From Melioribacter roseus P3M-2 (GTDB lineage: Bacteria; Bacteroidota; Ignavibacteria; Ignavibacteriales; Melioribacteraceae), in assembly GCF_000279145.1 (NCBI RefSeq), contig NC_018178.1, positions 3,171,688-3,235,687 on the forward strand: 64,000 nucleotides of DNA. The letters are read 5' to 3'. The notes under the pieces were generated by a model, which was not told where the DNA came from, did not search any database, and saw nothing but the letters and a program-made list of their open reading frames with translations. Made by a program: the position numbers and the translations under genes. Shown here one piece after another: positions 55,376 through 63,504 of this stretch; within the stretch, counting starts at the first letter, position 1, and every line of letters begins with the position of its first letter.

Positions 55376-56241
55376 ACGATCATATTCTCAATTGGTAATA
55401 ATAAAATGCCGGAGGCGCCGGCTTCTTTCAGGTCTTTATAAATTTCCCAGAACTTGCTTGTCGGGATTACGGCGTGAACTGCTACCATCTCCGGGTCTGC
55501 AAGCGGCAAAATTGTAGGGCTCTTAAGCGAAGGTATAATAGACTCAATCTTTTCAAGCGAGTTTTTGGGAGCGTTCATCATCAAGTATTTCGACTTGCGC
55601 GCCGTCAACGCCGAATCGATTCTGACAAGCAGGTTATCGAGTTGGGATTTTTTATCCGGGTCATTTTCGATATTCTTATTGGCAATCAAAACAGCTTGCG
55701 ATGAAAAAATATCGAACGACTTTTTGAGTTTATTGAATTTAAGAGTATTCCCGGTAGACACCAAATCGCAGATATAATCGGCAACTCCGAGCGAAGGTGC
55801 AATTTCGACCGACCCGCTGATTTCAACAACTGTGGCGTTAATATTATTCTGCGTCAGATAGCTCTTTAAAATATTCGGAAAAGAAGTCGCGATTCTTTTG
55901 CCGTTCAACTCGGACAGATCTTCGAGAGTTTGACTTTCGGGAATCGCCAATGAGAGTTTACATTTGCCGTATCCCAATTTCCTTACTACATCCACGTTTG
56001 CTTTTTTTTCATAGAGTACGTCCTCTCCTACAATTCCGATATCCGCCACGCCGTCCATAACATATTCGGGTATATCGTCGTCCCTCAACAATAAAATATC
56101 GAGATTGTAATTCCTGGCAGTTACTATCAGTCTGGCGGAGTATTCTTCTATGTCGATATCGCAGCTTTTAAGAAGATTCAACGACTTTTCGGTCAGTCTT
56201 CCGTTTTTTTGCAATGCGAGTTTCAAATTTCCGTTTAACAT
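55372..56241 (-). CDS. hisG: ATP phosphoribosyltransferase, long form
   Basis: 289 residues from the ATG at 56241, which has GGGAGA 6 bases upstream. The frame continues upstream through the attenuator hairpin, but those codons are leader sequence. LKLALQKNGRLTEKSLNLLK, VMDGVADIGIVGEDVLYE, GKCKLSLAIPESQTLEDLSE, RIATSFPNILKSYLTQNNIN and DLVSTGNTLKFNKLKK make up the catalytic part. From about residue 215 the C-terminal ACT-like domain (ILPLADPEMVAVHAVIPTSK, ASGILLLPIENMI) is the long-form HisG regulatory domain bound by histidine. First gene of hisGDCBHAF(IE). Confidence 0.95.
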   Translation of the reverse strand: MLNGNLKLALQKNGRLTEKSLNLLKSCDIDIEEYSARLIVTARNYNLDILLLRDDDIPEYVMDGVADIGIVGEDVLYEKKANVDVVRKLGYGKCKLSLAIPESQTLEDLSELNGKRIATSFPNILKSYLTQNNINATVVEISGSVEIAPSLGVADYICDLVSTGNTLKFNKLKKSFDIFSSQAVLIANKNIENDPDKKSQLDNLLVRIDSALTARKSKYLMMNAPKNSLEKIESIIPSLKSPTILPLADPEMVAVHAVIPTSKFWEIYKDLKEAGASGILLLPIENMIV

Positions 56242-56251
56242 ATTGTCTCCC

Positions 56252-56322
56252 ATAAAAAAAAACCCCGACATGCGCCGGGGTCTGTTAAGAATTTTTCAAT
56301 TTTATTTAAACCATACCGGCGC
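56252..56322 (-). promoter_or_regulatory. his attenuator (terminator/antiterminator pair)
   Basis: On the minus strand, arm 2 GCGCCGGTATG (56312-56322) lies at the end of the leader peptide. Arm 3 holds CCCCGGCGC (56272-56280) and arm 4 CGGGG (56263-56267). Arms 3:4 (ACCCCG/CGGGGT) followed by a run of nine T (complement of 56252-56260) form the terminator. Arm 2 GCGCCGG pairs perfectly with arm 3 CCGGCGC to form the antiterminator, and arm 2 can instead pair with arm 1 CATACCGGC (56354-56362) over 9 bases. The three exclusive pairings are those of a classical his attenuator. Confidence 0.88.
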
Positions 56323-56377
56323 TACTGAAGTAGTTGTAATGATGATGCCAATTGCCGGTATGAATTTTTCTTTTCAT
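56306..56377 (-). CDS. hisL: his operon leader peptide
   Basis: A 23-residue frame (ATG at 56377, TAA at 56306) reading MKRKIHTGNW, then three consecutive His codons, then YNYFSSAGMV; a fourth His is at residue 6. It has only 14 bases of 5' leader from the promoter. Ribosomes waiting for His-tRNA at the three codons would cover arm 1 and free arm 2. The stop lies just past arm 2. Confidence 0.85.
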   Translation of the reverse strand: MKRKIHTGNWHHHYNYFSSAGMV

Positions 56378-56397
56378 AATTTTTCTTATTTTCGGAC

Positions 56398-56428
56398 GAA
56401 ATTTAATAAACTTAACAAAAAGAAACAA
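56398..56428 (-). promoter_or_regulatory. Promoter of the his operon
   Basis: On the minus strand TTG (56426-56428), 20 bases, TAAATTTC (56398-56405). The -7 box differs only in its last base from TAnnTTTG. The start of transcription would be about 56391. Confidence 0.6.
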
Positions 56429-56449
56429 AATAAAAAAAACGGATTCGCT

Positions 56450-57280
56450 TTGATTTGTTTTCATGTGTCCGACTTACACGGGCGTCAAGAGAGATACGAA
56501 AAATTATTTGCCGAAATTATCAAAGAAAAACCCGAAGTGGTTTTAATGGGCGGCGACCTCTTACCACACGGGATTTCGAATAATCGGTTTATTTCCGGCT
56601 ATTTAAAAAATAAGCTAAGAACTCTGAAAGAAATTCTTAAAAAAGAATTTCCGAAATTTTTAATTATCATGGGCAACGACGACCCTAAAAAATTTGAAAA
56701 GGATTTCGAGAATTTGTCTGACGAGAATTTAATTTTCTATTTGAATCTCAAAAAAATATCCATAGGAGATTATCAGTTTTACGGTTATTCTTATGTGCCC
56801 CCGACGCCGTTCCGAATGAAAGACTGGGAAAAGTACGATGTCTCCAGATATACGGAACCCGGCATTATACCGCCCGAGGAAGGTTACATTACAAGCCAAC
56901 GCGCTCAATACGACATCAAATACTCAACAATAAAAGAAGATATACAAAACTATCTCGGGAACGAAGACCTTTCGAAATCCGTGATACTCTTTCATACTCC
57001 TCCGTACAACACTAAACTCGATTTGGTAAGGCCTGTATTAATTGAAAACGTGGAAACCGACAAACATGCGGGAAGCATTGCAGTTCGCAATTTCATAGAG
57101 TTGAAGCAGCCTTTGATCACGCTGCACGGTCATCTGCATGAATCTTCGTGCCTGAGCGGCGCATGGCATGACAGAATAGGCAATACATATTGTTTCAACG
57201 CGGCATATCATAAGTCCGAACTCTCGATAATAAAATTCGACCTGTCAGCTCCTCAGGATGCAAAAAGAATCCTAATCTGA
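56450..57280 (+). CDS. Metallophosphoesterase
   Basis: About 276 residues if started at the TTG at 56450 (ICFHVSDLHGRQERYEKLFA follows). No ATG fits: the open frame upstream runs back through the his leader and hisG on the other strand and cannot be coding. Metal and phosphate motifs are complete: SDLHG, MGGDLLPHG, IIMGNDDPKKFE, ILFHTPPYNTKLD and LHGHLHESSCLSG, as in calcineurin-like phosphodiesterases of the Rv0805/YfcE kind. The substrate is unknown (a nucleotide or phosphodiester). It is divergent from the his leader and overlaps the convergent PPDK_N gene by 9 bases. Confidence 0.8.
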   Translation: MICFHVSDLHGRQERYEKLFAEIIKEKPEVVLMGGDLLPHGISNNRFISGYLKNKLRTLKEILKKEFPKFLIIMGNDDPKKFEKDFENLSDENLIFYLNLKKISIGDYQFYGYSYVPPTPFRMKDWEKYDVSRYTEPGIIPPEEGYITSQRAQYDIKYSTIKEDIQNYLGNEDLSKSVILFHTPPYNTKLDLVRPVLIENVETDKHAGSIAVRNFIELKQPLITLHGHLHESSCLSGAWHDRIGNTYCFNAAYHKSELSIIKFDLSAPQDAKRILI

Positions 57281-60200
57281 TTTTTCAATTACTTTTAATG
57301 GTTTAGCGGCGTCCGTAAGAGCGTTTATCTTAACTGCATAACTCGTTTTATTTTTAATATCCTCGTCGGTAATAAAATGCACATCGAGGAGTCCGTCGGA
57401 TTTTATACCAGTACGCATATAGTTAATTTGGCTCAAGCATAAGCTCCACCCTTCAAGCCAGGCTGCCAGTTCTTTTCGCGGACATTTATTCTCGTCGATA
57501 TGAATAATAAGGTCGATATCGCTGCCGGGACCCGAAACTGCATTTTTAACGCTGCCGAACAAATAGATTCCTTTTACTCCCATTTTATCGGCATCCAATT
57601 CCTGTGCAAGATTTTCCGCTATTTTCAGTCTCCATCGCCAATGATCGCTGGGACTGTAATTTTCTACTTCGGTCTTTATTTCGGTTTCGTTAATTACTTC
57701 GTTAGTCGGATCGGCAAATATGGCGACGGCTTCTTCAAGATCGGCGTTCATCAATACACGCAGAATCATTCCTTCTTTTGATGCGGGAACGTCGATTACT
57801 TTTATAGTATCTTCCAGATAGAAATACTCCGGCAATATTTCCGAAAGGATATTTTTAGATTCATTGAAAAATTTCTCGTTGAAAATAATACCCGGATCGT
57901 CCGGATAAAGAGGCAGATATTTTATATTAGCCTCTACAAGATCCTGGAAAAAGTGAGTGCCGAAAGACACATCCGGGATATAGTTCCCTTTTTTACGTGC
58001 GATTTCGATTAACATGGCAGTATTGTTAATGTCGGAATAAGTAACGCTGACGCCCAGTTTAATATCCCCGCGACTTCCCCATCTGCCGGGCCCGAGCAGA
58101 ATAAATTTTCGTTTCGGAAGGATTTTATTCAATTTCCCGATAACCCTGCCAACTTTCAATAATTTATTTCTGTCCGTTATTTCAGAGTATTTTTGAGGAT
58201 CGACATAAACAATGTGAGTTATTTCCGGCACCTTCCCGTTTGAAACAAATTTTTTTGCGTTGAAAAGTATTTTCTCCTCTGGAATATCTTTCGGAATAGG
58301 ATCGCCCGATGTTTCGCGGCTTCTGCTTTGAGGTCGGCACTGAAGCAAATACAAATCGTTACCGTCGGAAACAAATTCTATATCGACTGGAGTTTTCATT
58401 CTTGCCTGTAATGTCTTTAATATCGTATCCATTTTCTTGAGAAAATCCGTTTTCGCAAAAAGACCTTCGAAAGTGACCACATAATCGCTTTTATCGTCGT
58501 CCATTATGGAAGGCATTCGTATCATACCTCCGTCGAGAACCGAAAAAACATGATCGAATGCCGGGTAATCTCTTTTAATTTCCTTTAATAATTTTTCCAG
58601 CTCAATCGTTTCAAATTCATTCGTCTTTAAGTTGATAACGTCCACCTTTTTGGGAGAATAACGGATTACTTCTTCGGGAGTGACATTGACTCTGATTGAG
58701 GACTGACCCGGCGAAATTAAAATCGGATAGTCGTCGCTCAGTCTGTCGACGGCTCTGGTGCCGAGACCGGGAACTATTCTCAAGAGTCCGTCTTCTCTTT
58801 TTATTCTGGGCGACCACCTGAATTCATTAACGCTGAACGCTACGCCTGCATAGGCTGGAATAAAATAATCCCCTACGCGTTTTCCAATCACTTCCTGAAT
58901 CATGATCCCCATTTCTTCATGGAAATCAAGAAGCCCCCTCTCGGCTCTGTATTCGATCGGGTCGGGACTGAAGGTCGAAGCGTACACTTCCGCAATGGCA
59001 TCCATTAATGCCGCAAGACGTTCAGCCTTGCTCCCCTGATTCGCCAAAAACAAACTCTTATATTTACCCGAAAACGAAGCATCCATCTGATCCTCCAGCA
59101 GACTCGAGCTTCGTACAACAAGCGGAACATCCCCGAAATCATCCAATGCTACAGACAAACCCTTTACGATATCTGGCGGAAATTCCGAATTTTTAAATAA
59201 CTGAACTATATGAGGATATTCGATTCTGACTTCTTCTATTTCCTTATATTTTTGTTCAAGCACTTCCTCTAAATTATTATGCTGCATAAAATTAAGAATT
59301 CCATCGGAAGTAATATACCAAGTATTAGGTACTTTAATATTTTTCAGTAAGTCATTGTTCGAAGCCTCTTTTCGTAAAATATGAGAAGCTACAAAAAGCC
59401 CTGCGCTCTTGCCTCCAAGTTTACCATGACTTTGCGGCGGAAAAATCATTTTATCGATCAACTTATAAAAATCCGTCAGTTTAACGTATTCTTTTGCAAT
59501 CGAAATAAAACTCAGTTGATCGGTAAAAAATCTGCGGAGCAAGGACACGCGTAAGCCTTTTATGGTTTGCGGCGGCAGCTCGAATTTTTCGGGAGCAAGA
59601 TGATAATATTTTCTGAGCGCTTCTGCAATTTCCGTTAAAGAGGTATCCTGATTATCGACCACTTTAATAAGCGCGCTCGATTTATCTTCCTGAATCCATT
59701 TCTGAATTTTACTCAAAATAACTTCGTCGGGCAGATTCTCGTCTGCCAGACGTTGAATGGTATCGACATATTCGTCGTAATTTACAATCCGTTCTACTTT
59801 GGTAGGTTTATTTTCGTCTTCTTTTTCGACGTCGTCGTTCAAACCGATTTTAATTTTACGGGCAATGCTCGTATGTTTCATCAGTAATTCCGCTTCTTCA
59901 ACGCCTTTCCAGCACAAGAGATGGAGTAATTTCCTCATTAAGCTCATGAACAGATTCGGATCGGTTTTGCGTATCATATCGAGCACAACTTTCCATTCGC
60001 CCCGCGCCGTTTTTCCGACAGATTGACGAACTGTTTGAAGTTCGTTAATTACGTTCTTCAATTTATTATGGAGTATGAAATGTCCCAATCTGTCTGCTAT
60101 CGTTTTAATTAAACGAACTTCTTCTTTCAGGAAAGGACTGCCGTCCTTGGCAGGCACGCCTTCGAGGTAATAGACTTCTATGCGCCCGACCGTTTTATCC

Positions 60201-60469
60201 TGTACTTTAATATCTTCGGATATCATCCATTTGCTCTCGGGAAATTCTTCCGTTTGATAGACAATATCTCCGTATATTATTCGGGATTTACAATAATTCG
60301 GGTAGAGAAAAGCCGACGGGATTGTATTAATTACCGTATGGAAAGCCTGCCTGAGAGAAATTTCAGAGCGATTTAATGTATCTTCGATTGTGTAAAGGCA
60401 ATTTAATTCTTTAGTCCTTTCCTGCAACTCAGTCATTAAAATTTCGATAGGTTTATTTTCCGCAGTCAT
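57272..60469 (-). CDS. PEP/pyruvate-binding (PPDK_N) protein with GAF-like start and C-terminal nucleotidyltransferase
   Basis: 1065 residues. Residues ~15-145 resemble a GAF-like sensory domain; ~150-340 are helical and charged. Residues ~348-716 are the ATP-grasp domain of PEP synthase/pyruvate phosphate dikinase: GKLGGKSAGLFVASHIL, VPLVVRSSSLLEDQMDASFS and the final VDIEFVSDGNDLYLLQCRPQ. Residues ~780-850 share a domain with the next protein: FILLGPGRWGSRGDIKLGVS and SFGTHFFQDL. Residues ~966-1035 are a minimal nucleotidyltransferase, GIYLFGSVKNAVSGPGSDID then LIIHID, with the GS and DxD residues. The phosphohistidine and PEP-barrel domains of true PEP synthase are missing, so it cannot make PEP by the usual route. 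It overlaps the second PPDK_N gene by 4 bases. Function unknown, probably a phosphotransfer or sensory enzyme. Confidence 0.8.
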   Translation of the reverse strand: MTAENKPIEILMTELQERTKELNCLYTIEDTLNRSEISLRQAFHTVINTIPSAFLYPNYCKSRIIYGDIVYQTEEFPESKWMISEDIKVQDKTVGRIEVYYLEGVPAKDGSPFLKEEVRLIKTIADRLGHFILHNKLKNVINELQTVRQSVGKTARGEWKVVLDMIRKTDPNLFMSLMRKLLHLLCWKGVEEAELLMKHTSIARKIKIGLNDDVEKEDENKPTKVERIVNYDEYVDTIQRLADENLPDEVILSKIQKWIQEDKSSALIKVVDNQDTSLTEIAEALRKYYHLAPEKFELPPQTIKGLRVSLLRRFFTDQLSFISIAKEYVKLTDFYKLIDKMIFPPQSHGKLGGKSAGLFVASHILRKEASNNDLLKNIKVPNTWYITSDGILNFMQHNNLEEVLEQKYKEIEEVRIEYPHIVQLFKNSEFPPDIVKGLSVALDDFGDVPLVVRSSSLLEDQMDASFSGKYKSLFLANQGSKAERLAALMDAIAEVYASTFSPDPIEYRAERGLLDFHEEMGIMIQEVIGKRVGDYFIPAYAGVAFSVNEFRWSPRIKREDGLLRIVPGLGTRAVDRLSDDYPILISPGQSSIRVNVTPEEVIRYSPKKVDVINLKTNEFETIELEKLLKEIKRDYPAFDHVFSVLDGGMIRMPSIMDDDKSDYVVTFEGLFAKTDFLKKMDTILKTLQARMKTPVDIEFVSDGNDLYLLQCRPQSRSRETSGDPIPKDIPEEKILFNAKKFVSNGKVPEITHIVYVDPQKYSEITDRNKLLKVGRVIGKLNKILPKRKFILLGPGRWGSRGDIKLGVSVTYSDINNTAMLIEIARKKGNYIPDVSFGTHFFQDLVEANIKYLPLYPDDPGIIFNEKFFNESKNILSEILPEYFYLEDTIKVIDVPASKEGMILRVLMNADLEEAVAIFADPTNEVINETEIKTEVENYSPSDHWRWRLKIAENLAQELDADKMGVKGIYLFGSVKNAVSGPGSDIDLIIHIDENKCPRKELAAWLEGWSLCLSQINYMRTGIKSDGLLDVHFITDEDIKNKTSYAVKINALTDAAKPLKVIEKSD

Positions 60470-62166
60470 TTAAGAATTACTCCCTTCCCTTTTTTACCGT
60501 CTACTTTAATTATTAAATTATTTTCCGTTCGGATGCGTTTTACAAACTTTAATTCTTCGATCGTATTCTGTTCTTCAATCCATTTCCAATCGATATAATC
60601 AGTGTCATAATTTAATGAAAAATAATAAACATCCAAATTCGACATGTTATGGAAAAAATGGGAACCCTGACTGAATTCCACATAAAAATTCTTCATATTT
60701 ATTTCAACGATTGCTTTTGCGGCGTTTACATCCGTCCATTCCACCGGAATTCCGAGCCACGGATCGGCGCTTCCCCATCTGCCGTAACCGATTAATATAT
60801 ATCTTTTATTTTCATCAATGATTTTCTTGTTCATTTGTGAAATTTCATTTGCAATGGCGACCGAGTTCTTAATATCAAAATTTTCCATCTTTACCATTAT
60901 TATATCAGTAATTTCCTCGCTTATTCCATGCCCCAATACTTTGTTTGATTTTAGTAGAATTCTGCCGTTTTCCTCCTCAATCTCATCCATACTGACGGCG
61001 TTGGCGTATTTTTTCATCGGGCGTACCTGTAAAAAAGCAAAATTCAGTATTCCTTTTTTATAATCCTGCCAACAAGCAAACTCGATTTCTACCAGAGAAT
61101 TATACTCTTCTTCGCAGATTTCCAACAACATCTTAATAAAATCATTGAATCCGTACATATTCAGTTCAATCAAAGGAGCGAAATTTATTATCCTCGGACC
61201 GTCTTTACCGGAGCCCATAATAATTTTATCGTCATTCGGTATGTAAGTGGAAACAATATTTTTAAGAACATTATCGTACTCAGCCGTATTTAACTCTTCA
61301 TGCGTCAAGTATTCCGTTTCTTTAAGAGGATCGTACTTGACACCCGGACTAATGTCAACCGCCCAGAATTTTTTTTGAGTGAGTTGCACTATGTCTCTAA
61401 CGCTTTTGTAGGGCAATGAATGTCTTGGATATTTTGGACAATAAGACCATACTATATCGCCGTCCACGATAGTTTTGCCGAGTCCCAATGCAAGATGAAC
61501 TATACCGTCTTCCGGTCGGGCTTTGCCAAAAGGATAAAAGTTGTATGATTTCGCCACTCCTGAAAAATCCGGGTAAAAGCGGTTGTAATGTTTTTGCCCG
61601 GCAATTCTCTGGATTATAACCGCCATTTTTTCTTTTTTAATCGGATAGCCCGCAAGCGTAAAATAATTTTTAGCCGCATTCGAATAGACAGAGGCGTACA
61701 CGTATTTTATAGAGTCGATAAATCTCTTGAAACGTAAATCCGGCGCTCCGGGCTGAGGGTTAATCATTTTAGTTTTGTAGACTCCGGCAAAAGGTTCGTC
61801 CGTAGAGTCCTCCAGCAGTCCTGAAGACCTGACTGCCAGCGGAAATTTTGCTTCGTTCAGAATATTGTTAAGTTCTCCCAGGAACTCATTCGGAAATACG
61901 GAATCGAGAAAATTTTTAATCAGATATCTTTCATCATTTTCATTAGTTGCATATTCCAATAAATTATTACGTTCGATAAATTTGTCGAAAATATCCGATG
62001 TAACGACCGCCATTCCGGGAATGAATAGGTTAATAGTTGACGGAATATTTTTCATCCCGGGAAGTATCGAAGCCGCTTTCAATAATCCGGCGGCTTTTCC
62101 ACCCACTTCTCCATTGCCTATTTTTAAGCAGGTATTATTGGAAAAGTATTTTGATGTCTTCTCCAT
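60466..62166 (-). CDS. PEP/pyruvate-binding (PPDK_N) protein, paralogue of the downstream gene
   Basis: 566 residues from the ATG at 62166; the ATG at 62184 would lie in the loop of a terminator hairpin. GNGEVGGKAAGLLKAASILP, FPLAVRSSGLLEDSTDEPFA, HLALGLGKTIVDGD and EIEFACWQDYKKGILNFAFL with QVRPM form a PPDK_N ATP-grasp domain. Residues ~440-520 repeat the domain of the partner: YILIGYGRWGSADPWLGIPV, EWTDVNAAKAIVEI and FSQGSHFFHNMSNLDVYYFS. It has no GAF, no phosphohistidine domain, no PEP barrel and no nucleotidyltransferase. The 4-base overlap (ATGA) with the 1065-residue partner implies a stable pair or complex. Function unknown. Confidence 0.78.
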   Translation of the reverse strand: MEKTSKYFSNNTCLKIGNGEVGGKAAGLLKAASILPGMKNIPSTINLFIPGMAVVTSDIFDKFIERNNLLEYATNENDERYLIKNFLDSVFPNEFLGELNNILNEAKFPLAVRSSGLLEDSTDEPFAGVYKTKMINPQPGAPDLRFKRFIDSIKYVYASVYSNAAKNYFTLAGYPIKKEKMAVIIQRIAGQKHYNRFYPDFSGVAKSYNFYPFGKARPEDGIVHLALGLGKTIVDGDIVWSYCPKYPRHSLPYKSVRDIVQLTQKKFWAVDISPGVKYDPLKETEYLTHEELNTAEYDNVLKNIVSTYIPNDDKIIMGSGKDGPRIINFAPLIELNMYGFNDFIKMLLEICEEEYNSLVEIEFACWQDYKKGILNFAFLQVRPMKKYANAVSMDEIEEENGRILLKSNKVLGHGISEEITDIIMVKMENFDIKNSVAIANEISQMNKKIIDENKRYILIGYGRWGSADPWLGIPVEWTDVNAAKAIVEINMKNFYVEFSQGSHFFHNMSNLDVYYFSLNYDTDYIDWKWIEEQNTIEELKFVKRIRTENNLIIKVDGKKGKGVILK

Positions 62167-62171
62167 ACAAT

Positions 62172-62195
62172 AAAAGCCGGGCATTACCCGGCTTT
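62172..62195 (-). terminator. Terminator hairpin between gdhA and the PPDK_N pair
   Basis: On the minus strand AAAGCCGGG (62187-62195) pairs exactly with CCCGGCTTT (62173-62181) around a 5-base loop and is followed by TTATTG. It lies 23 bases after the gdhA stop and 7 bases before the chosen PPDK_N start, so it may be leaky or act as an attenuator. Confidence 0.65.
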
Positions 62196-62217: not shown

Positions 62218-63504
62218 TTATACCCAACCTCTATCCTTGCAAGCCTGAGCCACTCGGTTAATTGCAATTACATACGCAGCGTCGCGCATATACAATTTTT
62301 TGTTTCGGGCTAACTCGCTTACGGATAAATAAGCATTCGTCATTTTAGTGTCGAGTTTCGCCAATACTTCTTCTTTTTCCCAGTAATAATTCATATTAGA
62401 CTGAACTTGTTCAAAATAGCTGCATGTGACGCCTCCGGCATTTGCCAGGAAGTCTGGAATGACGAAAATATTTCTTTCCTGAATTACCTTGTCGGCTTCG
62501 ATAGTAGTGGGACCGTTTGCGCCTTCGGCAATAATTTTCACGCGTTTGCTTATCTTATTAACATTGTCGGCGTTGATTTGGTTTTCGAGCGCGGCTGGTA
62601 TTAAAATATCAACGTCCTGCTCGATCCACGCATCGCCTTCGAGGATTTCATACCCGAGTTCTTTTGCCTTTGTTTTGTCGATACCGCCGAACTTATCGGT
62701 AATACCGAGCAGCTCGTCCCGGTTAATTCCGTCCATTTTTCTGAATGTGTATGAACATTTATCCTGTTCGTCCCAGCTTGCCACTGCAATTACTTTTCCG
62801 CCCAGTTGAGTGTATAATTCGATTGCATACTGAGCAACGTTGCCGAAGCCTTGCACAGAAGCCAGAGTTTCTTCGGGTTTTATATTCATTTCTTTCAATG
62901 CTTCTCTCAGAGTAAAAATAACTCCGTATCCGGTAGCTTCTGTTCTGCCCAAAGAGCCTCCCATGCCTACGGGTTTACCCGTGATAAAGCCCGGATATTT
63001 ACCTCCGGTAATACTTTCATATTCATCGAGCATCCAGAGCATATGCTGCGCGTTAGTCATTACGTCCGGAGCCGGCACGTCATTTACAGGTCCTACGTTC
63101 TTAGCCATTTGACGCACCCATCCGCGGCAGATTTGTTCCTGTTCTTTCATACTCAGATGATGCGGGTCGCATATAACTCCTCCCTTGCCTCCGCCGAGAG
63201 GAATATTAACAACGGCGCATTTCCAGGTCATCCACATTGCCAACGCTCTTACCGTATCGACCGTTTCTTGCGGGTGAAATCGGATTCCGCCTTTCGAAGG
63301 TCCGCGTGCGTCATTATGCTGAACGCGAAAACCTCTGAAAATTTTTGTGGAACCGTCGTCCATTTTAACGGGAATACTGAAATGATATTCCCGGAGAGGA
63401 TTTCTTAATAATTCTCGAGTGGATTCGTCTAAATTGAGTAATTCAGCTACTCTGTCGAATTGAGCTTGTGCCATTTCAAAAGGATTAAACTCTTTGGATT
63501 TCAT
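62218..63504 (-). CDS. gdhA: Glutamate dehydrogenase (Glu/Leu/Phe/Val family)
   Basis: 428 residues. Substrate motifs PLREYHFSIPVKMDDGSTKI, FRGFRVQHNDARGPSKGGIR, VVNIPLGGGKGGVICDP (catalytic Lys) and VNDVPAPDVMTNAQHMLWML precede the nucleotide domain GMGGSLGRTEATGYGV, VQGFGNVAQYAIEL, PAALENQINADNVNKI and EGANGPTTIEADKVI. It is the NAD(P)-dependent hexameric GDH type II of about 420-430 residues, interconverting glutamate and 2-oxoglutarate, and would recycle the glutamate made by the lysine aminotransferase. GAGG precedes the ATG. Confidence 0.95.
   Translation of the reverse strand: MKSKEFNPFEMAQAQFDRVAELLNLDESTRELLRNPLREYHFSIPVKMDDGSTKIFRGFRVQHNDARGPSKGGIRFHPQETVDTVRALAMWMTWKCAVVNIPLGGGKGGVICDPHHLSMKEQEQICRGWVRQMAKNVGPVNDVPAPDVMTNAQHMLWMLDEYESITGGKYPGFITGKPVGMGGSLGRTEATGYGVIFTLREALKEMNIKPEETLASVQGFGNVAQYAIELYTQLGGKVIAVASWDEQDKCSYTFRKMDGINRDELLGITDKFGGIDKTKAKELGYEILEGDAWIEQDVDILIPAALENQINADNVNKISKRVKIIAEGANGPTTIEADKVIQERNIFVIPDFLANAGGVTCSYFEQVQSNMNYYWEKEEVLAKLDTKMTNAYLSVSELARNKKLYMRDAAYVIAINRVAQACKDRGWV

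Follow-up and report, generated by a model that had tools for sequence, protein, structure and literature searches.

A widely distributed PPDK_N protein family with genomic linkage to glutamate dehydrogenase and a candidate role in its control

The window analysed here (a stretch of 64,000 nucleotides from Melioribacter roseus P3M-2) contains two overlapping genes, A and B, which together with a paralog C of the same genome represent a protein family that is genomically linked to glutamate dehydrogenase (GDH). In A and B a PPDK_N ATP-grasp domain is directly followed by a highly conserved domain, here called X. We put it at an even chance that A, B and C are GDH-associated, signal-gated ATP:histidine phosphotransferase modules ('half-dikinases') acting on GDH; the phosphohistidine chemistry, the regulatory role and GDH as the target are what we infer from the results below.

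Gene A (57272..60469, minus strand; 1065 aa) was delineated from its ORF, Pfam matches and a structure model (mfe8e8854247e, mean pLDDT 81.9), and shows the domain order GAF-like, helical region, PPDK_N ATP-grasp, X and minimal nucleotidyltransferase. The initial annotation had assigned a GAF-like sensor to this larger gene, and the fold agrees: residues 10-142 (60044..60442, minus strand) match the GAF domain 3cit (VIA Z 13.4, rmsd 2.1, 123 aligned) as well as the GAFs of two PEP-protein phosphotransferases (3trc, Z 11.5; 3ci6, Z 11.1). Histidine kinases encoded close to some of the A loci contain a related stretch. Gene B (ORF 60466..62184, minus strand; 572 aa, or 566 aa from the ATG at 62166 used in the initial annotation) consists of ATP-grasp and X only. 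A PEP synthase-like ATP-grasp had been claimed for both genes and is confirmed by PF01326 (PPDK_N) in A (residues 350-732, 58274..59422, minus strand; E 4.8e-67) and in B (residues 26-403, 60976..62109, minus strand; E 3.1e-32). The ATP-grasp of A retains K354, R453, D696, E698, Q710 and R712, which we take to be the equivalents of the PPDK catalytic residues. Structural comparison of the A model gives rifampin phosphotransferase 5hv3 as the top match of the whole protein (Z 23.6, rmsd 5.6, 395 aligned), aligns residues 311-920 with PEP synthase 2ols (Z 22.9, rmsd 4.3, 363 aligned) and places HpeI (9goj) among the matches of the ATP-grasp.

Neither the phosphohistidine domain PF00391 nor the PEP/pyruvate barrel PF02896 is matched by Pfam in A or B at E<=1, and A has no Pfam match to an Enzyme I domain. 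The earlier claim that both genes lack a PEP-barrel domain is therefore upheld. The parallel claim for the phosphohistidine domain holds as far as profiles are concerned; against it stands domain X, with its swivel-like model and invariant histidine. In A it covers residues 733-920 (57710..58273, minus strand), as supported by conservation, VIA matches and a separate model of residues 722-925 (m5be123d82c41, pLDDT 94.2); in B it occupies residues ~408-572 (60469..60963, minus strand), as found by hhalign and a match to the X profile. The X domain of A is related to that of B and C with an hhalign probability of 99.7%; with PF00391-type domains the probability stays below 1%, so that hhalign gives no sequence link to them. 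A and X were modelled singly, and among the best VIA matches of X are the C-terminal part of pyruvate kinase (474-583, Z 6.0), rifampin phosphotransferase (756-867, Z 5.7) and PPDK (381-513, Z 5.0), which is modest support, as Z 5-6 is the range where according to the tool a match may mean just a common arrangement. The matches are presumably mostly swivel-type folds; the unrelated folds CD38 and polymerase epsilon come next at Z ~4. Foldseek finds no match of the X model at E<=0.001, and absence of a family from such fold lists is not evidence against membership. Based on these models X likely resembles the swivelling phosphohistidine domains in a diverged form. The candidate phospho-acceptor is H839 of A (codon 57953..57955, minus strand), situated in the motif S-F-G-T-H-F-F (S-Q-G-S-H-F-F in B); the motif reads S-F-G-T-H in A and S-Q-G-S/T-H in C, and the GGxT[SC]H motif of PF00391-type domains is absent from A and B. 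We propose that H839 takes the known phosphohistidine position in the model, judged by the order of strands and helices rather than by superposition.

Conservation was counted over distinct ORFs, with near-copies left unweighted: 81 A proteins (score >700 bits, at least 1020 aa), 32 B proteins (score >480, 560-640 aa) and 33 C proteins (score >300, at least 960 aa, score above the A score). These counts exclude fragments at contig edges and A relatives of lesser length (931 aa in L018, 782 aa in L019). Set A1 holds 69 of the 81 A proteins after a cut at 88% identity, and set A3 comprises 68 A proteins and 60 B/C proteins out of 61 non-redundant ones, giving 128 rows without L074 (A) and the fragment L090 (C). 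The positions of K354, R453, E698, Q710, R712 and H839 are identical in all 146 A, B and C proteins, the histidine included; the D696 position is D in 81/81 A and E in 64/65 B/C. Judging by sequence, A, B and C look like intact ATP-to-histidine modules rather than fragments.

Directly upstream of B in the window lies GDH (62218..63504, minus strand; 428 aa; PF00208 E 2e-72, PF02812 E 1.5e-54), a conserved neighbour that the initial annotation had overlooked. Among 80 A loci, GDH is found upstream of A in 71; given that 6 of the other 9 loci end too early to tell, this corresponds to 71 of 74 informative loci (not adjacent in 3). The GDH nearest to A is on the same strand in 68 loci and divergent in 3, and in L096 and L100 the nearer GDH is divergent. 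For a second phylum (G148, L107), which we take to be Aminicenantes (Acidobacteriota in GTDB), 20 X-domain loci were hand-picked down a profile-match list without looking at GDH, and GDH adjoins 18 of them (not adjacent in 2). Paralog C carries ATP-grasp and X on a single chain with receivers and without nucleotidyltransferase, and its second receiver keeps E, D, D and K in 33/33 proteins. In the home phylum GDH lies beside C in 17 of 21 loci, our own included and the copy of G062 at a contig end excluded (not adjacent in 4). In Bacteroidales records it lies beside C in 2 of 3 (not adjacent in 1); in Parabacteroides the neighbour is annotated as gdhA and C as 'PEP/pyruvate-binding domain-containing protein'. 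The genome under study has two GDHs in all, and these flank all three X-domain genes. The counts are not to be read as independent events, since the loci share descent. Our search of the open-access literature brought up no description of a link between PPDK_N proteins and GDH, which is weak evidence of absence as several queries came back empty.

A minimal nucleotidyltransferase had also been claimed for the larger gene, and Pfam bears this out: NTP_transf_2 (PF01909) matches at A 957-1005 with 26.9 bits (cut-off 21). The domain spans residues ~940-1058 (57296..57652, minus strand) and has the expected GS, DxD and third D (G972, S973, D984, D986, D1029); Foldseek matches are weak (2rff, E 0.032; MNT 8xeh, E 0.062). 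All five residues are present in 71 of the 81 A proteins and at least one is lost in the other 10. Of six A-type genes sampled from the second phylum, the match to A stops at residue 916-924, the end of X, and GDH adjoins five of these six. The nucleotidyltransferase is thus apparently dispensable in part of the family. The initial annotation had suggested a phosphotransfer or nucleotide-transfer system; the conserved ATP-site residues and candidate phosphohistidine support phosphotransfer, and nucleotide transfer is possible but secondary in view of the residue losses and the genes that end after X. A main role in defence was considered and rejected: PADLOC matches only the nucleotidyltransferase part of A, weakly (PDC-S09, best E 1.4e-5, 23.4 bits), and gives no match for B or C.

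Several known systems share parts of this architecture. PtsP of PTS-Ntr is a GAF-Enzyme I phosphohistidine protein of nitrogen control that uses PEP via the Enzyme I barrel; A would resemble it as a GAF-gated phosphohistidine protein with a link to nitrogen control, and has a GAF close to those of 3trc and 3ci6, but shows an ATP-grasp and no Enzyme I domain match. The MNT/MntA nucleotidyltransferases share the GS...DxD...D motif, the Pfam match above cut-off and the weak Foldseek matches, whereas in A this domain is fused to an ATP-grasp/X protein. PEP synthase and PPDK likewise have an ATP-grasp followed by what corresponds to our proposed histidine domain, with presumably the same catalytic residues; A and B differ in lacking PF02896 and PF00391, in their GDH linkage and in the added signal and nucleotidyltransferase domains. 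Rifampin phosphotransferase (RPH) combines a PPDK_N-type ATP-grasp and a swivelling phosphohistidine domain without pyruvate barrel, and for X a swivel-like fold is likely; according to PMC4844700, however, the ATP-grasp and His domain of RPH are separated by a large domain that binds rifampin, and the histidine lies near the C-terminal end. In A and B X adjoins the ATP-grasp without a recognised substrate domain, and A adds GAF and nucleotidyltransferase; the NCBIfam model RIF_Ptrans_rph yields 38.7 bits in A and 17.4 in B at a cut-off of 999. HpeHI, PpsAB and CreHI similarly have dikinase machinery without pyruvate barrel in a multi-gene architecture, and HpeHI carries the His and substrate domains on one chain and the ATP-grasp on another (PMC12167813). 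Unlike HpeHI and PpsAB, A, B and C each carry the ATP-grasp and the proposed His domain X on a single chain, and A and B have no recognised substrate domain.

In the mechanism that we propose, the ATP-grasp would bind ATP and hand the beta-phosphate to H839 of X, with release of AMP and Pi. As neither a PEP/pyruvate domain nor any other substrate domain is recognisable, X would pass either the phosphate or its conformational state on to a partner protein, in the simplest case the neighbouring GDH. The reaction would be gated by a GAF in A and by a receiver in C, with no sensor domain in B, and the nucleotidyltransferase of many A proteins would provide a second possible covalent output. GDH would then respond to energy charge and to an additional signal. 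GDH stands at the junction of carbon and nitrogen metabolism, and to our knowledge its control is not known for many bacteria; a widely distributed GDH-adjacent family, built like a signal-gated dikinase, is a specific candidate for its regulator, gut Bacteroidales included. More tentatively, there may be an unrecognised branch of nitrogen control in which GDH is covalently regulated by phosphohistidine modules that run on ATP, are gated through a GAF or receiver domain and in some cases include a nucleotidyltransferase, in Ignavibacteria, Aminicenantes and relatives, Calditrichota, gut Bacteroidales and others, with a swivel domain beyond the reach of current profiles. Should X indeed be a swivel domain of this kind, profile searches would be showing too small a swivel phosphohistidine family.

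Other readings have to be weighed against these regulatory modules. As described in PMC4844700 and PMC12167813, the characterised relatives PEP synthase, PPDK, rifampin phosphotransferase, HpeHI, PpsAB and CreHI phosphorylate small molecules, and with their catalytic residues intact ATP-grasp and X might do the same, acting on a small molecule made or used beside GDH (e.g. a 2-oxo acid or a glutamate-derived compound), with the acceptor bound by X, by GDH or between domains at their interface. We regard such a metabolic dikinase as unlikely, given that B, being ATP-grasp and X, is too short for a known substrate domain and that the GAF (A) or receiver (C) domains are typical of regulation. The GDH linkage would also suit proteins that bind ATP or AMP in the ATP-grasp fold and regulate GDH by forming a complex with it, with no phosphate transferred, and protein-type regulators of GDH have precedents (GarA in mycobacteria, an APRT homologue in Thermus). 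Here the invariance of the ATP-site residues and the X histidine in 146/146 proteins suggests catalysis, and we regard a non-covalent adenylate sensor as likewise unlikely.

It is improbable that the nucleotidyltransferase leads, with A adenylylating or uridylylating GDH (or B) and the ATP-grasp merely sensing or gating. The Pfam match above the curated cut-off and the five motif residues in 71/81 A speak for it, as does the precedent of GlnE and GlnD, nucleotidyltransferases that regulate nitrogen enzymes; yet B and C have no such domain, 10/81 A have lost a motif residue, and the six second-phylum genes match only through X with GDH still beside five. Least probable by far is that A, B and C are decaying fragments of a PEP synthase or PPDK that stayed close to GDH by accident or through common descent, a reading for which only PPDK_N homology without barrel would argue. 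Conservation of the core residues in all 146 proteins in effect refutes this; in addition, a separate 935-aa gene of the same genome encodes a PPDK-like protein with PPDK_N and PF00391, the A, B and C cores form separate groups in a tree of 76 of the 146 proteins, relatives aligning over almost all of A come from several phyla (best 80 of 169), and the GDH linkage recurs across separate samples.

The initial annotation had further derived a stoichiometric pair from the overlap of A and B. The overlap itself is present (4 nt, ATGA) and is of the same type in 17 of 32 A-B loci, based on coinciding tblastn ends. The pairing is weakened by comparison with other genomes, where A often occurs without an adjoining B: B adjoins A in 32/80 loci, and an obligate A-B pair is rejected accordingly. 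Upstream, the gap between GDH and B holds a terminator-like hairpin (62173..62195, minus strand; 10-pair stem and T-rich tail) with a folding energy of -16.2 kcal/mol (z -2.6), so that simple co-transcription of GDH and B is not established. Within 2 kb the scan gives 3 terminator-like sites where 2.3 would be expected, and of 61 gaps measured elsewhere 34 hold such a hairpin; the one described here is possibly an attenuator. On the other side a convergent metallophosphoesterase ORF (56150..57280, plus strand; PF00149 E 2.7e-11, in the part from 56330) overlaps A with its 3' end, and its true start is probably downstream of 56150. Of 68 informative loci, 41 have a homologue on the downstream side of A, making this the next commonest neighbour after GDH, followed by hisG- and hisD-like genes with 13 of 80 A loci each.

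The two overlapping minus-strand genes A (57272-60469, 1065 aa) and B (60466-62184, 572 aa) share an ATGA junction and lie in a genome of 3.30 Mb on a single contig. Pfam places a PPDK_N domain in each protein and, at the end of A, an NTP_transf_2 domain. Neither PF00391 nor PF02896 is matched in A or B at E<=1, in line with the initial annotation, which had read the pair as having no phosphohistidine or PEP-barrel domain; matches to the NCBIfam PEP-synthase models are far under their cut-offs (the best scores 67.3 bits where 598 is required). The GAF-like sensor suggested for the larger gene is borne out by a fold search, which matches 3cit at A 10-142 (Z 13.4) and identifies A ~311-720 as an ATP-grasp of the PEP-synthase/rifampin-phosphotransferase type. 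Minimal nucleotidyltransferases match the C-terminal part of A weakly (Foldseek; 2rff, E 0.032; 8xeh, E 0.062). The ATG at 62184 falls within a terminator-like hairpin (62173-62195, minus strand; ten-pair stem, T-rich tail) and the ATG at 62166 lies 3' of it; the latter, already chosen in the initial annotation, is the likelier start of B.

Conservation was counted over 146 proteins (A, 81; B, 32; C, 33), C being a third paralog elsewhere in the genome. K354, R453, E698, Q710 and R712 (A numbering throughout, unless stated) are kept in all 146, and position 696 is D in 81/81 A and E in 64/65 B/C; these positions, with D696, we take to be equivalent to the PPDK catalytic residues. Among the most conserved stretches of A is ~785-857, with GPGRWGS and SFGTHFFQD, outside the Pfam matches. 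It belongs to a domain, X (A 733-920), that comes after the ATP-grasp in B and in C as well (99.7% probability by hhalign) and whose histidine, H839, is present in 146/146 proteins. Judged by these residues, the core (ATP-grasp plus X) of A, B and C appears intact.

Sequence profiles (hhalign) gave no connection between X and phosphohistidine domains, and a model of A 722-925 built from 128 rows spanning A, B and C (pLDDT 94.2) found nothing with E<=0.001 using Foldseek alone. With VIA-align the model matched the C-terminal part of pyruvate kinase (3t05 474-583; Z 6.0, rmsd 3.1, 107 aligned), the His domain of rifampin phosphotransferase (5fbu 756-867; Z 5.7, rmsd 3.7, 110 aligned) and PPDK (5jvl 381-513; Z 5.0, rmsd 3.8, 120 aligned), with RraA and others also among the rows. 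By fold class, 18 of the first 20 rows are swivelling beta/beta/alpha domains; unrelated folds such as CD38 come next at Z ~4. When A is modelled in full, residues 311-920 align to PEP synthase 2ols (Z 22.9, rmsd 4.3, 363 aligned), which puts X in the place of the PEP synthase His domain. The predicted topology, rather than a superposition, suggests that the histidine of X follows a strand and stands at a helix start, as in known phosphohistidine domains. Since Z values of 5-6 are modest, we rate it as likely, and not higher, that X is a swivelling domain.

Directly upstream of B lies a glutamate dehydrogenase gene (GDH; 62218-63504, minus strand, 428 aa; PF00208 E 2e-72). Among 80 A loci chosen on sequence only (the top 80 of 169 relatives), GDH is upstream of A in 71, or in 71 of the 74 informative ones: six loci end too early to judge (L073, L102, L111, L123, L140, L142) and three truly have no upstream GDH (L094, L095, L106). 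Measured from tblastn ends, GDH and A are separated by a median of 141 bp at the 45 loci where B is absent from the gap and of 1.85 kb at the 26 where B intervenes. Record titles, which may be wrong for MAGs, include Ignavibacteria, Zixibacteria, Aminicenantes, Acidobacteria, Calditrichota, Cloacimonadota and Neomarinimicrobiota. The rest of the synteny decays, hisG-like and hisD-like genes (our labels) each occurring in 13/80 loci.

The linkage extends to other members of the family. In a second phylum, that of the Aminicenantes-titled genome G148, the X profile matches 81/198 genomes, and GDH adjoins in 18 of 20 loci picked down the match list; L251 has GDH ~6 kb off and L250 none in its stretch. 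For home-phylum C loci, own genome included, GDH stands beside C in 17/21 (gap 2.5 kb in L197; not beside it in L188, L191, L196 and L200). C is also present in three Bacteroidales records of the plasmid collection, beside GDH in two, the Prevotella record having no GDH within 8 kb; in Parabacteroides distasonis an annotated gdhA is next to a 'PEP/pyruvate-binding domain-containing protein', which is C. The own genome has two GDHs (two further PF00208 matches are weak) and three X-domain proteins, arranged as GDH-B-A in the window and GDH-C at C1:2354-2358k. Most sampled genomes have one to five GDH genes, and by rough estimate a random gene would have a GDH no more than 2 kb away in at most a very few per cent of cases; loci are non-independent through shared descent. 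The linkage outlasts rearrangement: GDH occurs on the same strand or divergently, alongside A, B-A or C, and on either side. Three loci (L232, L233, L236) have the order GDH2-C-GDH1, two different GDH types flanking C.

Around the core the signal domains vary: A consists of GAF, core and nucleotidyltransferase, B of the core alone, and C of two receiver-like domains and core. The first receiver-like domain of C has a weak Pfam score, under cut-off; the second, unmatched by Pfam, carries E175, D176, D245 and K298 (C numbering) in 33/33, retaining a full active site. This receiver-carrying C adjoins the second GDH of the own genome (L181:5029-9404). All five checked nucleotidyltransferase residues occur in 71/81 A. 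In six second-phylum A-type genes the match to A stops at 916-924, and the five whose ends were located finish shortly beyond and so have no nucleotidyltransferase; two of the six (L243, L251) are also without a GAF match. L018 and L019 match A from residue 154-158 onward only. Some A loci encode, upstream of GDH-B-A, histidine kinases (L084:2536-3747, L117:683-2773) that contain a stretch related to A's GAF-like start, hinting at a common signal. One gene past C in Parabacteroides is a stand-alone nucleotidyltransferase-family gene (L252:11915-12652) that may be a split counterpart of the C-terminal domain of A; a second GDH lies beyond it. In a 76-core tree, a branch sets each of A, B and C apart from the rest (support 100, 88 and 69, respectively), and B groups with C. 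The B genes of the window and of L067, its nearest relative (A 88% identical), form a long branch of 1.01 changes per column with core residues retained; B may be fast-evolving in this genus.

The simplest machine fitting these data would be a relay from ATP through the X histidine to a partner. The ATP-grasp would load the histidine with the ATP beta-phosphate, and charged X would swing over to the partner. Signals received by the GAF or receiver domains would gate the relay, and nucleotidyl transfer could add a second, optional mark. For rifampin phosphotransferase, PMC4844700 proposes His825 of the His domain as attacker of the ATP beta-phosphate. Known dikinases, as described in PMC12167813, have their substrate domain on the same or a second chain. 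Because B has no recognisable substrate domain and GDH is the most conserved partner gene, we propose GDH as the target, which might be phosphorylated or switched through docking; both this target and the phosphotransfer chemistry are what we infer. That these proteins act as a small-molecule dikinase is unlikely, and that they serve as a non-covalent adenylate sensor is a little less probable again. The ATP-grasp dikinase, the probable swivel His domain and, as ingredients, GAF, receiver and nucleotidyltransferase domains are of known kinds; what sets the family apart is how these are combined, together with its cryptic X domain and its linkage to GDH. We found no account of the A/B/C family or the GDH linkage in an open-access paper library, though papers may exist elsewhere or in other wording.

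In our own scan (measured gaps of 15-500 bp, loci L067-L146), a hairpin with T-rich tail occurs in 34/61 gaps between GDH and the next A/B gene, against ~5% of mononucleotide-shuffled gaps. Given these hairpins, GDH and the B-A genes may be separate units or joined by partial read-through. The one between GDH and B tempers the operon reading, not the linkage, and a hairpin after GDH may set a low regulator-to-GDH ratio. At the other end, the 3' end of a calcineurin-like metallophosphoesterase gene (56150-57280, plus strand) overlaps the 3' end of A. It may be part of the A/B/GDH system and, as 41/68 informative loci have a homologue downstream of A (convergent in 40/41), may counteract whatever A does.
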